From: Fidelibacterota bacterium
GTDB taxonomy: Bacteria > Fidelibacterota > Marinisomatia > Marinisomatales > TCS55
Assembly (NCBI GenBank): GCA_002724735.1
Contig: PBPT01000016.1
Span: 71,674-135,673 of the forward strand
Length of the DNA: 64,000 nt
Reading direction: 5' to 3'
Position numbers and translations under genes: made by a program. Positions 2,316 to 7,125 of this stretch are shown here, one piece after another (the first letter of the stretch is position 1; each line of letters opens with the position of its first letter). The notes beneath the pieces are model-generated. The model saw only the letters and a list, made by a program, of their open reading frames with translations, did not search any database and was not told the DNA's origin.

Positions 2316-2627
2316 ATGGGACGAGTTTTTGTCGAGGAGGCTATAAATGCTACAGGTATTGATAGAACTAATTTAGTTGTTGTAGCAACATACCTAGTAA
2401 GAACTAAGCAAGCTACAAGTGCTATAGATGCGATACGTAGACTAGAAAACGGAGAGTTTGACAAAGCAGAATTAGAAGAAGAAATGATTAGATTTTTTCA
2501 ACATGAAAAACCTAAACCTGTTGAAGAAGAACCAATTATAGATGTTGACTCTTTTAATAATAAACAACAAAAACACGAAGCAGAAATAGAAGAAATTTTT
2601 TCAAAAGAGGTTGACACAGATAAATAG
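2316..2627 (+). CDS. hypothetical protein
   Basis: Complete ORF with an AAAGAAAGG-type RBS and strong upstream promoters. Confidence 0.75.
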   Translation: MGRVFVEEAINATGIDRTNLVVVATYLVRTKQATSAIDAIRRLENGEFDKAELEEEMIRFFQHEKPKPVEEEPIIDVDSFNNKQQKHEAEIEEIFSKEVDTDK

Positions 2628-2639
2628 CTGTGTTATAGT
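2611..2639 (+). promoter_or_regulatory. sigma70-like promoter of the tRNA operon
   Basis: TTGACA-N17-TATAGT, overlapping the end of the preceding CDS. Confidence 0.8.
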
Positions 2640-2663
2640 ATATACATACTAAGGAATAGAGCA

Positions 2664-2729
2664 ATGATGAACACAATACAAATAATATCTTATATATGGT
2701 GCCCAACTTACGGGAGGGGTTTGTCTTGA
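2664..2729 (+). CDS. candidate leader peptide of the tRNA operon (MMNTIQIISYIWCPTYGRGLS)
   Basis: 21-codon ORF with an AAGGA RBS at 2651-2655, between a promoter and an attenuator-like terminator. Codons match all five downstream tRNAs. Confidence 0.65.
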   Translation: MMNTIQIISYIWCPTYGRGLS

Positions 2730-2764
2730 TGTGATTTATTGACATTAAGTTTGAAACAAGCCCC
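2716..2764 (+). promoter_or_regulatory. candidate antiterminator hairpin
   Basis: GGGGTTTGT (2716-2724) pairs with ACAAGCCCC (2756-2764); inner stem CTTGATG (2725-2731) pairs with CATTAAG (2743-2749). The 3' arm overlaps the terminator 5' arm. Confidence 0.6.
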
Positions 2765-2788
2765 AAGCGAAAGCAAGGGGCTTTTTTT
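2758..2788 (+). terminator. Rho-independent terminator (attenuator) just before the tRNA genes
   Basis: AAGCCCC-AAGCGAAAGCAA-GGGGCTT followed by a T run, ending one base before the first tRNA. Confidence 0.85.
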
Positions 2789-2862
2789 ATGGGTGTAGTG
2801 TAACGGTAGCACGACAGTCTCCAAAACTGTTAGTCGGGGTTCAAATCCCTGCACCTATGCCA
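2789..2862 (+). tRNA. tRNA-Trp(CCA)
   Basis: ATGGGTG/CACCTAT acceptor, anticodon loop CTCCAAA, CGGGG-TTCAAAT-CCCTG T arm, encoded CCA. Confidence 0.92.
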
Positions 2863-2867
2863 ACAAC

Positions 2868-2952
2868 GGGCGGCATGTTCACAAGGTGTGACATCGGACT
2901 GTAAATTCGACGCTGAAAAGCATGCCTGGTTCGATTCCAGGGTCGCCCACCA
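2868..2952 (+). tRNA. tRNA-Tyr(GTA)
   Basis: GGGCGGC/GTCGCCC acceptor, loop CTGTAAA, long variable arm, CCTGG-TTCGATT-CCAGG, encoded CCA. Confidence 0.92.
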
Positions 2953-2957
2953 AGAAC

Positions 2958-3034
2958 CGGAGTATAGCACAGCTTGGTAGTGCGCCTGGTTTGGGACCAG
3001 GAGGTCGTAGGTTCGAATCCTACTACTCCGACCA
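2958..3034 (+). tRNA. tRNA-Pro(TGG)
   Basis: CGGAGTA/TACTCCG acceptor, CCTGG-TTTGGGA-CCAGG anticodon arm, encoded CCA. Confidence 0.95.
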
Positions 3035-3038
3035 TTTT

Positions 3039-3113
3039 GTGAGCGTGGGGGAATTGGTTACCCATCGGATTGCAACTCCGCTTATGCAGGTTCGAGTCCT
3101 GTCGCTCACTCCA
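3039..3113 (+). tRNA. tRNA-Cys(GCA)
   Basis: GTGAGCG/CGCTCAC acceptor, loop TTGCAAC, GCAGG-TTCGAGT-CCTGT, encoded CCA. Confidence 0.93.
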
Positions 3114-3120
3114 ACATTAA

Positions 3121-3214
3121 GGTCCTGTAGTTTAATGGTAAAACACCCGGCTTATACTCGGCATAGTCTCCAGATTAGAGAGCGATGCAGGTTCGAATCC
3201 TGCCAGGACTACCA
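3121..3214 (+). tRNA. class-II (long variable arm) tRNA with anticodon TAT, probably decoding AUA (Ile)
   Basis: GGTCCTG/CAGGACT acceptor, loop CTTATAC, variable hairpin TCTC-CAGATTA-GAGA, GCAGG-TTCGAAT-CCTGC, encoded CCA. Confidence 0.8.
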
Positions 3215-3234: not shown

Positions 3235-3262
3235 TTGACAAGACTGTAATAGATGCTATACT
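3235..3262 (+). promoter_or_regulatory. sigma70-like promoter
   Basis: TTGACA-N16-TATACT upstream of the 3298 CDS. Confidence 0.65.
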
Positions 3263-3297: not shown

Positions 3298-3663
3298 ATG
3301 GAAAAACAAGCAGAATTATTTACAAGCGAATGGGGTGTTAGAAATGATGTTGAACATTTGTATAATGCACTCCAAGACAAAATACCAGCAATGGGTATGG
3401 TAAAGAATGCCAACAAGAATAGGCATCTTGAAACTTTCCGAAAAGCTCAAAACGTTACCTATGACATTTTCAATAACGGTCTAATAAATAGAGGCAAAAG
3501 CCTAAAGGTTCTTGGTCTTAAAAAAGATGATCTTCCCCTTCCAGAATACTATGGAAGAAATGGTTATTTTCCAGGTAACTGGGAAAGAATTGAATTCTTA
3601 GTAAGTGAGGCATTTGCACCTATTATCCAAAGGGCGGCTGAAGAGCAAGGTATGATCAATTAG
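3298..3663 (+). CDS. hypothetical phage protein
   Basis: Complete ORF after a promoter, RBS AGAGGG. Confidence 0.75.
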   Translation: MEKQAELFTSEWGVRNDVEHLYNALQDKIPAMGMVKNANKNRHLETFRKAQNVTYDIFNNGLINRGKSLKVLGLKKDDLPLPEYYGRNGYFPGNWERIEFLVSEAFAPIIQRAAEEQGMIN

Positions 3664-3674
3664 GAGTTGGCAAG

Positions 3675-4373
3675 ATTTATTTTATAAGTGCTCCATTTGG
3701 TAATTTTTTACAACATTCAACCTTTGCATCAAATGCGACTTGTGTTACAGGAACATTTACTTTAAAACCACGTCCTGGCAGACTAAAACAAATACTTCGC
3801 ACACTCAGATATGTAAGAACAGAAGAAGGCTGGACATGGCGTAATCAATTAGGATTACGTAATCCAGGAATATTTGAAGGCATAGAAAATACATCTTCGA
3901 ACAGTATAATGAGTTTTGCTTGTTTAGAAGAAGATGATTGGAAAATCTTACATGCAATTATTCCCAAACATATGAATATTGAATTGAATATTAGTTGTCC
4001 AAATGTTAACGAACACCCAAATTTAAAAAATTACTTCGCCTTAGATAAACGTAAATGGTGTATTGTTAAAGTGCCGCCAACTATTACACAAAAACAACTT
4101 GACAAAATAATTAGTTTAGGGTATAATAGTATACATGCAAGTAATACTATACCGACGGCAAAAGGCGGATTATCAGGTAAAATGATAATGCCATATACTT
4201 TAAAAATAATTGACTATATAAAAAGTAACTATAGAGATATTAAAGTTATTGCAGGCGGTGGAGTGTATTCTAAACAAGATGCAAACAAATATTTAGATGC
4301 CGGTGCTGATCATATTAGCTTAGGCAGTGTGTGTTTTACTCCTTGGAAGATAAAAGGTATAATTAATGACTAA
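3675..4373 (+). CDS. dihydroorotate-dehydrogenase-like flavoprotein (short form), probable ATT start
   Basis: Frame open from 3642 with KIYFISAPFGNFLQHSTFASNATCVTGTFTLKPRPGR before the listed Met at 3909. NISCPN, GGLSG and IAGGGVYSKQDANKYLDAGADHISLGSVCF are DHODH-type FMN/phosphate motifs. AGGAG at 3662-3666 precedes ATT at 3675. Confidence 0.65.
   Translation: MYFISAPFGNFLQHSTFASNATCVTGTFTLKPRPGRLKQILRTLRYVRTEEGWTWRNQLGLRNPGIFEGIENTSSNSIMSFACLEEDDWKILHAIIPKHMNIELNISCPNVNEHPNLKNYFALDKRKWCIVKVPPTITQKQLDKIISLGYNSIHASNTIPTAKGGLSGKMIMPYTLKIIDYIKSNYRDIKVIAGGGVYSKQDANKYLDAGADHISLGSVCFTPWKIKGIIND
4099..4127 (+). promoter_or_regulatory. intragenic consensus sigma70 promoter
   Basis: TTGACA-N17-TATAAT inside the DHODH-like CDS, about 240 nt upstream of the UV endonuclease gene. 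Confidence 0.6.
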
Positions 4374-5436
4374 ACGAATTGGCTTTGCATGCAAATACAT
4401 GCATCCAGATCAAACACAAAAAAAGAAACTGCTAGAAGAAATTCAGCGTCCGCTAAATACTCGTAGTACAACTGTTCAGTGGCTGAATAGACAAACAGTA
4501 GATGTAGCAGAAGAACGCTTGTGGGATATTATGGTCCACAATATTGCGTCATATGGGAGACTAATTGAGTATGTTGGATCTTTACCTGAACAACTTAGAA
4601 TGGTCAGATTGGGTAGCGATGTCCTTCCTGTTTATACCGAGCCTACTTGGAGTTATTTTTGGCGTAAGCCTGATGTGGTTGCGTACTGTGAAAAACACTT
4701 CGCAACAGTCGGAGAAACAGCAAGACAACGAGATGTTAGACTCTCCATGCACCCAGGCCAATTTACAGTCCTTGCTTCAGATACTGAAGAAATAGTTGAA
4801 CGTAGTATAGAGGAGTTTGAATATCATGTGGATTGCATCAGATGGATGGGCTACGGCCTACAATTCCAGGACTTCAAGTGTAACGTACACATCTCCGGCC
4901 GTAAGGGTCCAGCCGGCATCAAAGCAGTCCTCCCAAGATTATCTCAAGAAGCGAGAAACTGTATTACGATCGAAAACGACGAAAACAAGTGGGGGATCGA
5001 GGCAAGCCTCGAACTGCAAAAAGATGTCGCACTCGTTTTGGACATACACCACCACTGGGTTAGGGAGGCTGAATACATACAGCCCTCCGACGATAGATTT
5101 ACTCGCATAATTGATTCGTGGCGAGGTGTCAGGCCCGTAATACATTACAGTTACAGTCGTGATGAACATTTGCCTGCAGACTTTGCACATGACTCAATGC
5201 CTAGCATGAACAAGCTATTAGAAGCAGGACACAAAAAAGCTAAACTACGAGCACACAGTGATTACTATCCGAATCAGCTTGTAAATGATTATGCACTTTC
5301 ATTCTTAGATTACGCGGATATTATGTGTGAAAGTAAATGTAAAAATCTAGCTAGTATTGAGCTTTATAAATACTATACAGGAGAAAAGTATGACATACTT
5401 GAACAAGATGTACGGGCGTACAGCGCCGTCGCTTAA
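4366..5436 (+). CDS. uvsE: UV damage endonuclease (UvdE/UvsE family)
   Basis: IGFACKYMHPDQ... RLSMHPGQFTVLAS... VHISGRKG...LPRLSQEARNCITIENDEN...VLDIHHHW matches UVDE motifs. Confidence 0.9.
   Translation: MTKRIGFACKYMHPDQTQKKKLLEEIQRPLNTRSTTVQWLNRQTVDVAEERLWDIMVHNIASYGRLIEYVGSLPEQLRMVRLGSDVLPVYTEPTWSYFWRKPDVVAYCEKHFATVGETARQRDVRLSMHPGQFTVLASDTEEIVERSIEEFEYHVDCIRWMGYGLQFQDFKCNVHISGRKGPAGIKAVLPRLSQEARNCITIENDENKWGIEASLELQKDVALVLDIHHHWVREAEYIQPSDDRFTRIIDSWRGVRPVIHYSYSRDEHLPADFAHDSMPSMNKLLEAGHKKAKLRAHSDYYPNQLVNDYALSFLDYADIMCESKCKNLASIELYKYYTGEKYDILEQDVRAYSAVA
5365..5372 (+). promoter_or_regulatory. late promoter motif TATAAATA
   Basis: TATAAATA 25 nt upstream of ATG 5390. Confidence 0.6.
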
Positions 5437-6726: not shown

Positions 6727-6753
6727 TAAATACTATTGATTAAAGGAGCTCCA

Positions 6754-7125
6754 ATGACCATCTGCACACTAACTGAACAAGCAAAAAAACAAGTAAACAT
6801 ACTTTGCGAGGAAAATAATTGCTTCGCGGTTAGTCTAAACCTTACTGGCGGCGGCTGTGCAGGGTTTCAGTATGACTGGGATTCTGTAGAAAAAGAAGAA
6901 GATGTAGAAAAAATGGATATTGTTATTAATACAGGGTCAGGAAATTTTGTTATTGGCGCACACAGTATAATGTTTTTAGCAGGCACAGAAGTAGATTATG
7001 TAAAATCTTTTGTAGGGCAAACATTTGAAATAAGAAATCCAAACACAAAGTCAGAATGTGGTTGCGGAGTAAGTATAAACTTTGATATGGATAAACTAGA
7101 TAACTCGCTGGCTACAGCAGTATAA
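6754..7125 (+). CDS. A-type Fe-S cluster carrier (IscA/ErpA/HesB-like)
   Basis: LTEQAKKQVN...LTGGGCAGFQYDW...NPNTKSECGCGVSINF; conserved C...CGCG. ATG 6754 follows AAAGGAG. Confidence 0.9.
   Translation: MTICTLTEQAKKQVNILCEENNCFAVSLNLTGGGCAGFQYDWDSVEKEEDVEKMDIVINTGSGNFVIGAHSIMFLAGTEVDYVKSFVGQTFEIRNPNTKSECGCGVSINFDMDKLDNSLATAV

Follow-up and report, generated by a model that had tools for sequence, protein, structure and literature searches.

The leader that precedes a five-tRNA operon in the window (the whole 64,000-nucleotide stretch analyzed) is best read as a trp-type ribosome-mediated attenuator that senses the decoding of its operon's own tRNA codons, a reading to which we give, from sequence analysis, a probability of roughly 0.88. 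Trp-type attenuation had been proposed in an earlier note on this DNA, and it is supported by the anatomy of the locus, its conservation in the listed relatives, the covariation of leader codons with tRNA genes, and the unmatched tRNAs upstream of the operon. More generally, we consider it likely that jumbo phages possess a programmable sensor of tRNA shortage whose codons have been edited by evolution to list the controlled tRNAs, such that depletion of any one of them, e.g., by a host anticodon nuclease, would turn on the whole replacement set.

Anatomy of the Leader

The promoter, ribosome-binding site, 21-codon reading frame, two hairpins, and row of tRNA genes claimed for the locus were all found, base by base, at the positions given in Table 1. 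The 5′ arm of the terminator is also an arm of the antiterminator (the shared GCCCC arm), so the two hairpins are mutually exclusive; the antiterminator has an energy of −21.7 kcal/mol (computed on L001, identical in sequence to the window). Folding of positions 2640–2790 with RNAfold, a check asked for in the earlier note, gave −34.0 kcal/mol, z = −2.3, and 6 of 200 shuffles as good. The leader terminator is absent from the output of the terminator scan, which accepts loops of 3–8 nt only, whereas the apical part of this hairpin measures 12 nt. In an Rfam search of the locus with E up to 5, the tRNAs were the sole credible matches, and neither an amino-acid leader family nor a T-box was found.

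Table 1. Features of the leader and the tRNA operon in window coordinates
Feature	Position	Strand	Details
Sigma-70-type promoter TTGACA-N17-TATAGT	2611..2639	+	TTGACA 2611-2616, TATAGT 2634-2639; 11/12 match
Leader ribosome-binding site AAGGA	2651..2655	+	Read in sequence
Leader peptide ORF MMNTIQIISYIWCPTYGRGLS*	2664..2729	+	21 codons + TGA; ATA x4, TAT, TGG, TGC, CCA, TAC
Core sensor codons TGG TGC CCA	2697..2705	+	19, 16, 13 nt 5′ of antiterminator arm
Antiterminator	2716..2764	+	GGGGTTTGT 2716-2724 with ACAAGCCCC 2756-2764; inner stem 2725-2731 with 2743-2749
Intrinsic terminator hairpin and T run	2758..2788	+	AAGCCCC(N)GGGGCTT 2758-2783, T run to 2788
tRNA-Trp(cca), first gene of regulated operon	2789..2862	+	ARAGORN
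tRNA-Tyr(gta)	2868..2952	+	ARAGORN
tRNA-Pro(tgg)	2958..3034	+	ARAGORN
tRNA-Cys(gca)	3039..3113	+	ARAGORN
tRNA-Ile(tat), long variable arm	3121..3214	+	ARAGORN
Next promoter TTGACA-N16-TATACT	3235..3262	+	Precedes protein gene 3298-3663

Given the promoter behind the tRNA row, tRNA-Ile is likely the last gene of the attenuated unit. A further gene, tRNA-Arg(acg) at 1463–1539 (ARAGORN), lies upstream of the leader promoter. It is contained in the 5′ portion of a predicted ORF (1385–2248), whose protein probably has its actual start downstream of the tRNA.

Conservation in Related Phages

Relatives were collected from IMG/VR in three scans. The first pattern, the conserved end of the leader, gave 40 stretches, 2 of them by chance; the second, designed against circularity, was free of leader codons, being made up solely of the T run, the terminator arms, and the antiterminator arm, and gave at least 120 stretches, from which chance matches and duplicates were then removed. 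After cleaning, at least 72 distinct combinations of leader and tRNA cluster were retained, in related large marine phages. Among the matches listed, the leader ORF has 15–24 codons and the antiterminator and terminator hairpins exclude each other in all 72 combinations, and TGG is located 10–22 nt 5′ of GGGGT in every one and 13–22 nt in 71. All 71 listed relatives have an RBS-like motif, and 63 of the 71 have a sigma-70-like promoter (at least 9/12 matching and no farther upstream than 75 nt), in comparison with 19% expected from shuffles. The earlier note named absence of the leader from relatives that share the tRNA set as a refuting outcome; the listed IMG/VR relatives carry it.

Of the 72 listed leaders, 68 share one frame relative to GGGGT, while L086, L107, L115, and L142 read into the arm in a different frame or end immediately ahead of it; the stop codon is inside or adjoining the arm. 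That the leader is translated we infer from the ribosome-binding site and the conservation of the frame. The tRNA-Trp gene comes first in all scored clusters listed but one, the exception being L106, where tRNA-Cys alone is visible; the cluster of L096 is cut by the contig end. These comparisons point to Trp as the invariant sensor, around whose TGG the remaining codons appear to have been added.

A divergent leader on the minus strand of L141 (1–1370), with TGT TAT CCA TGG followed by a similar arm, a terminator, and tRNA-Trp, at which point the contig ends, is possibly an independent second type. No homologue of the leader was found with blastn among 50,697 named phages, and the covariance model R1 gave nothing convincing in Phosso, Atu_ph07, Vibrio 2.275.O, XaC1, and GAP32. 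The XaC1 match turned out on inspection to be an ordinary terminator, as did two weak R1 matches in the remainder of the window's assembly. A search for DNA relatives of this assembly returned only tRNA matches and unrelated matches.

Covariation of Leader Codons and tRNA Genes

In 20-codon draws from the window's own long ORFs, codons of the right families for all five tRNAs occurred in 0.18%, and none of 200,000 draws contained all five exact codons; shuffling the leader's own bases gave a five-family match in 1.5% and the five exact codons in 0.12%. The codon match at this single locus is unlikely by chance, yet alone not overwhelming, and it is the comparative data that decide. For these we used 56 nonredundant loci with complete clusters, from the matches listed. 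A cognate leader codon was present for 109 of the 117 regulated non-Trp tRNAs, in comparison with 79.1 when tRNA sets were permuted freely and 86.5 ± 3.2 when they were permuted within leader lineages. The proposed covariation of leader codons with tRNA content was thus confirmed, and path-disjoint pairs agree. Chance expectation, for which a permutation test had been called for, was excluded, as the maximum in 5,000 permutations was 97; together with the draws from the window, the permutations rule out pure chance as the cause of the match.

The signal is clearest for isoleucine, where it extends to synonymous codons: in the 56 loci listed, ATA was found in 19 of 19 leaders with tRNA-Ile(tat) or a CAT-anticodon tRNA and in 4 of 37 without, and ATT and ATC showed the opposite trend relative to the AUA-reading tRNA. 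The corresponding numbers with and without the tRNA were 32/32 vs. 15/24 for Cys, 10/11 vs. 26/45 for Ser(TCN), and 4/4 vs. 20/52 for Tyr. When path-disjoint pairs were taken on a tree from nonleader sequence, the codon followed the tRNA in 9 of 9 pairs for Ile, 8–0 for Cys (4 ties), 6–0 for Ser (4 ties), and 4–0 for Tyr, with weaker outcomes for Pro (3–2) and Gln (2–1). Additional new loci had an AUA-reading tRNA in 2 of 3 cases of the ATA class, the third belonging to the exceptional L059 lineage, and in 0 of 8 of the ATT class. As a negative control, tRNAs upstream of and outside the operon were matched in 28 of 113 cases against a permutation mean of 26.9, and among the matches listed tRNA-Gly-tcc was accompanied by a Gly codon in the sensor region in 1 of 18 cases when upstream and in 3 of 3 when in the operon.

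Pro, Lys, Arg, and Ala showed no significant covariation among the listed relatives. Pro codons are nearly universal and uninformative, and tRNAs for Arg, Lys, and Ala mostly lack a matching codon near the sensor. The Gln association is accounted for by lineage and disappears within lineages, and Ser codons covary mainly in a zone predicted to be masked, where contact between a stalled ribosome and the arm is already expected. The match is stricter from tRNA to codon than from codon to tRNA: some Trp-only loci retain Cys or Pro codons, and L059, L072, and L253 have three ATA codons without a tRNA-Ile.

Sister loci show individual exchanges. Between L037 and L042, the sensor codon CCA is TCA, and L042 has tRNA-Ser(tga) (and Gln); between L077 and L100, AAT is GGT, and L100 has tRNA-Gly; between L252 and L064, TGT is GGT, and tRNA-Cys is replaced by Gly. 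L080, whose leader is nearest to the window's among the matches listed, lacks tRNA-Tyr and both Tyr codons (AAT for TAT and TTT for TAC). In L055, the Pro tRNA is outside the operon, and the leader has no Pro codon. L026 has Glu and Arg(acg) tRNAs in the operon with GAA and CGT in the leader, the sole such case among the matches listed. tRNAs with a CAT anticodon in the regulated operon (L053, L058, L064, L077, L080, L082, L083, L100, L103, L115, and L142) always occur with ATA leader codons and never with an interior ATG. This association suggests that they are tRNA-Ile2 (lysidine) rather than tRNA-Met, and leader codons can in this manner disclose the identity of a tRNA.

Hairpin Evolution and Modeled Switching

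The earlier note also asked for compensatory changes in both hairpins. Among the listed relatives these were evident in the terminator, with 36 cells of double changes against 7.7 in shuffled data, but not in the antiterminator, whose arms hardly vary and which showed no excess of double changes. The antiterminator was paired in 86% of cells, in comparison with 30–55% in slid controls. GGGG pairs with GCCCC in all 64 distinct segments folded from the matches listed, 56 of which exceed spacer shuffles in stability (P ≤ 0.05; mean z −2.9), and the mean energies of the two alternative hairpins are balanced (−19.6 vs. −19.2 kcal/mol in the listed relatives).

When modeled for a stall at TGG at a time when the 3′ arm is still to be transcribed, the antiterminator reached 0.97, and with a ribosome at the stop codon the terminator reached 1.00; in naked RNA, the terminator was at 0.98 on average and at 0.24 for the window's own sequence. 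At modeled equilibrium, the terminator wins in most of the listed relatives even with a stalled ribosome, although not at the window's own locus, and because of this preference we infer that the switch must be cotranscriptional. Cotranscriptional switching is generally accepted for trp. The toeprint of a ribosome extends ∼13 nt from the A-site codon, and the distance of at least 13 nt between TGG and the arm in 71 of the 72 listed relatives fits this. With TGG 13–22 nt before the arm and the stop codon in or beside it, a stalled ribosome would leave the arm free and one at the stop codon would cover it.

Proposed Mechanism and Alternatives

On the established anatomy, conservation, and codon–tRNA covariation, one can build a plausible course of events. 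A ribosome translating the leader would stall if the aminoacyl-tRNA for Trp, Cys, Ile(AUA), Tyr, or the like were scarce; the GGGG arm would then pair with the GCCCC arm once this is transcribed, the terminator would be blocked, and the tRNA genes would be transcribed. With fast decoding, the ribosome would reach the stop codon and cover the arm, the terminator would form, and transcription would end before tRNA-Trp. As the tRNA product would relieve the stall, the arrangement would amount to negative feedback on tRNA supply. The trigger is probably depletion of host tRNAs during infection or their cutting by host defense nucleases; host tRNA loss in phage infection and tRNA-cutting defense nucleases (PrrC, VapC, retron-Eco7 PtuAB, and PARIS) are documented, making such a trigger plausible.

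The constancy of Trp could also mean that the leader, like those of host trp operons, responds to a lack of amino acids, with Trp as the real signal and the other codons as passengers. TGG is in every listed leader, tRNA-Trp leads all scorable clusters but one, and the GGGGTNTGT and GCCCC arms recur in Bacteroidota trpE leaders with WWWH codons. However, leader codons and tRNA genes change together for Ile(AUA), Cys, Tyr, Ser, and Gly, down to ATA vs. ATT, and since additional tRNA would presumably not cure a shortage of amino acids, we regard starvation as an unlikely trigger. If instead the terminator merely insulated the tRNA cluster, the codon match could result from shared descent of leader and cluster. 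The leaders do fall into few lineages, and some loci have unmatched codons, but the association is still seen inside lineages and between independent pairs, and it breaks down for tRNAs that are not part of the operon, leaving this explanation highly improbable.

Two further alternatives concern the leader's role as a message. The nearly constant C terminus among the matches listed, RGMS or RGLS, could be that of a nascent peptide (W-C-P...RGMS) that itself stalls the ribosome. As four listed leaders differ in frame or stop earlier yet keep the arm, this constancy reflects a constraint on RNA, not on peptide; codons near the sensor also vary with tRNA content, and we rejected an arrest peptide as very improbable on account of the C termini in another frame. 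Codon-like words matching the tRNAs would be expected as well if, as in a T-box, translation played no part and uncharged tRNA paired directly with both a specifier codon and the antiterminator. This we hold to be scarcely credible, given the conserved ribosome-binding site and frame, the several codons used at once, and the absence of T-boxes from the Rfam matches up to E = 5.

Relation to Known Systems

We ran the antiterminator/terminator pattern on 85,462 prokaryote genomes and obtained 62 matches, with no phage-type tRNA leader among them. Thirteen of the 62 are Bacteroidota trp leaders (WWWH...), far above chance expectation, and at least 12 have a trpE-like reading frame behind them (L148, L149, L153, L159, L163, L170, L179, L186, L193, L194, L196, and L198), the record of the 13th (L158) ending too soon. 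The phage leader resembles these trpE leaders (e.g., L148, L149, L163, and L194) in its short length, the Trp codons before a GGGGTNTGT arm, the alternative hairpins, and the T run; the GCCCC/GGGGC terminator and the GGGGTNTGT arm are common to both. Descent from a trp attenuator or convergence with one is possible, and descent would fit the constancy of the Trp codon and tRNA-Trp. By target, the phage leader is not of the trp family, as no trp biosynthesis genes but tRNA genes lie downstream. Unlike in the trp operon (trpL), the controlled genes do not encode biosynthesis enzymes, the sensed molecule would be the output, and several codon types track the tRNA set.

The thr and ilv leaders are multi-amino-acid attenuators, and the pheST attenuator controls an aminoacyl-tRNA synthetase. 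The phage leader shares with them several codon types per leader, ribosome stalling as proposed here, and a translation-linked output, whereas those systems sense pathway amino acids or serve one synthetase and the phage codons are cognates of the downstream tRNA genes, with which they coevolve. T-box riboswitches perform tRNA-responsive antitermination with one specifier codon and no translation; the phage leader is proposed to be similarly tRNA-responsive but has a conserved ribosome-binding site, an ORF, and multiple codons, and lacks an Rfam match. It is most likely a known trp-type mechanism rebuilt into a self-sensing attenuator of multiple tRNAs, for which we found no described equivalent; none of the open-licence papers searched describes phage tRNA genes under the control of an attenuator, which does not show that no such description exists.

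Why phages carry tRNA genes has long been debated, with codon compensation, replacement of degraded host tRNAs, and evasion of tRNA-cleaving defenses among the explanations (PMC10264068, PMC11555353, PMC11025619). In the constitutive operons of T5/SP15, expression of phage tRNA-Tyr against retron-Eco7 is described as strong and promoter-driven (PMC11555353). As in those operons, phage tRNAs here would replace depleted host tRNAs, but the passages searched mention no attenuator (PMC11555353), and expression here is predicted to depend on tRNA shortage. The family offers evidence, written in genomes, in which the scarcity of certain tRNAs seems to control their own production by the phage. The leader names these tRNAs, and the family separates the regulated ones (Trp, Cys, Pro, Ile-AUA, Ser, Gln, and Tyr) from others that the phages encode at other sites (Thr, Gly, Leu, and Ser). 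It provides a natural multi-tRNA sensor and makes the question of phage tRNA function testable.

Genomic Setting

The window covers positions 71674–135673 of a 335,231-bp contig (G000:C57). Its genes include those for a clamp loader and a DNA polymerase of T4 type, the latter with its best matches in two jumbo phages, Sinorhizobium phage Phosso (50%) and Agrobacterium phage Atu_ph07 (46%), and family members in IMG/VR are on contigs of up to 275 kb; for these reasons we identify the contig as that of a T4-like jumbo phage binned with a bacterial assembly. Elsewhere it carries tRNA-Thr(tgt), tRNA-Leu(taa), and tRNA-Arg(tct) (G000:C57:40547–40619 and 333484–333644; L248 and L249), which lie directly 3′ of protein genes with no such leader in the stretches read. 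Two other proteins in the window resemble, by eye and from sequence motifs, a UV-damage endonuclease (4366–5436) and an IscA/HesB-like protein (6736–7125).
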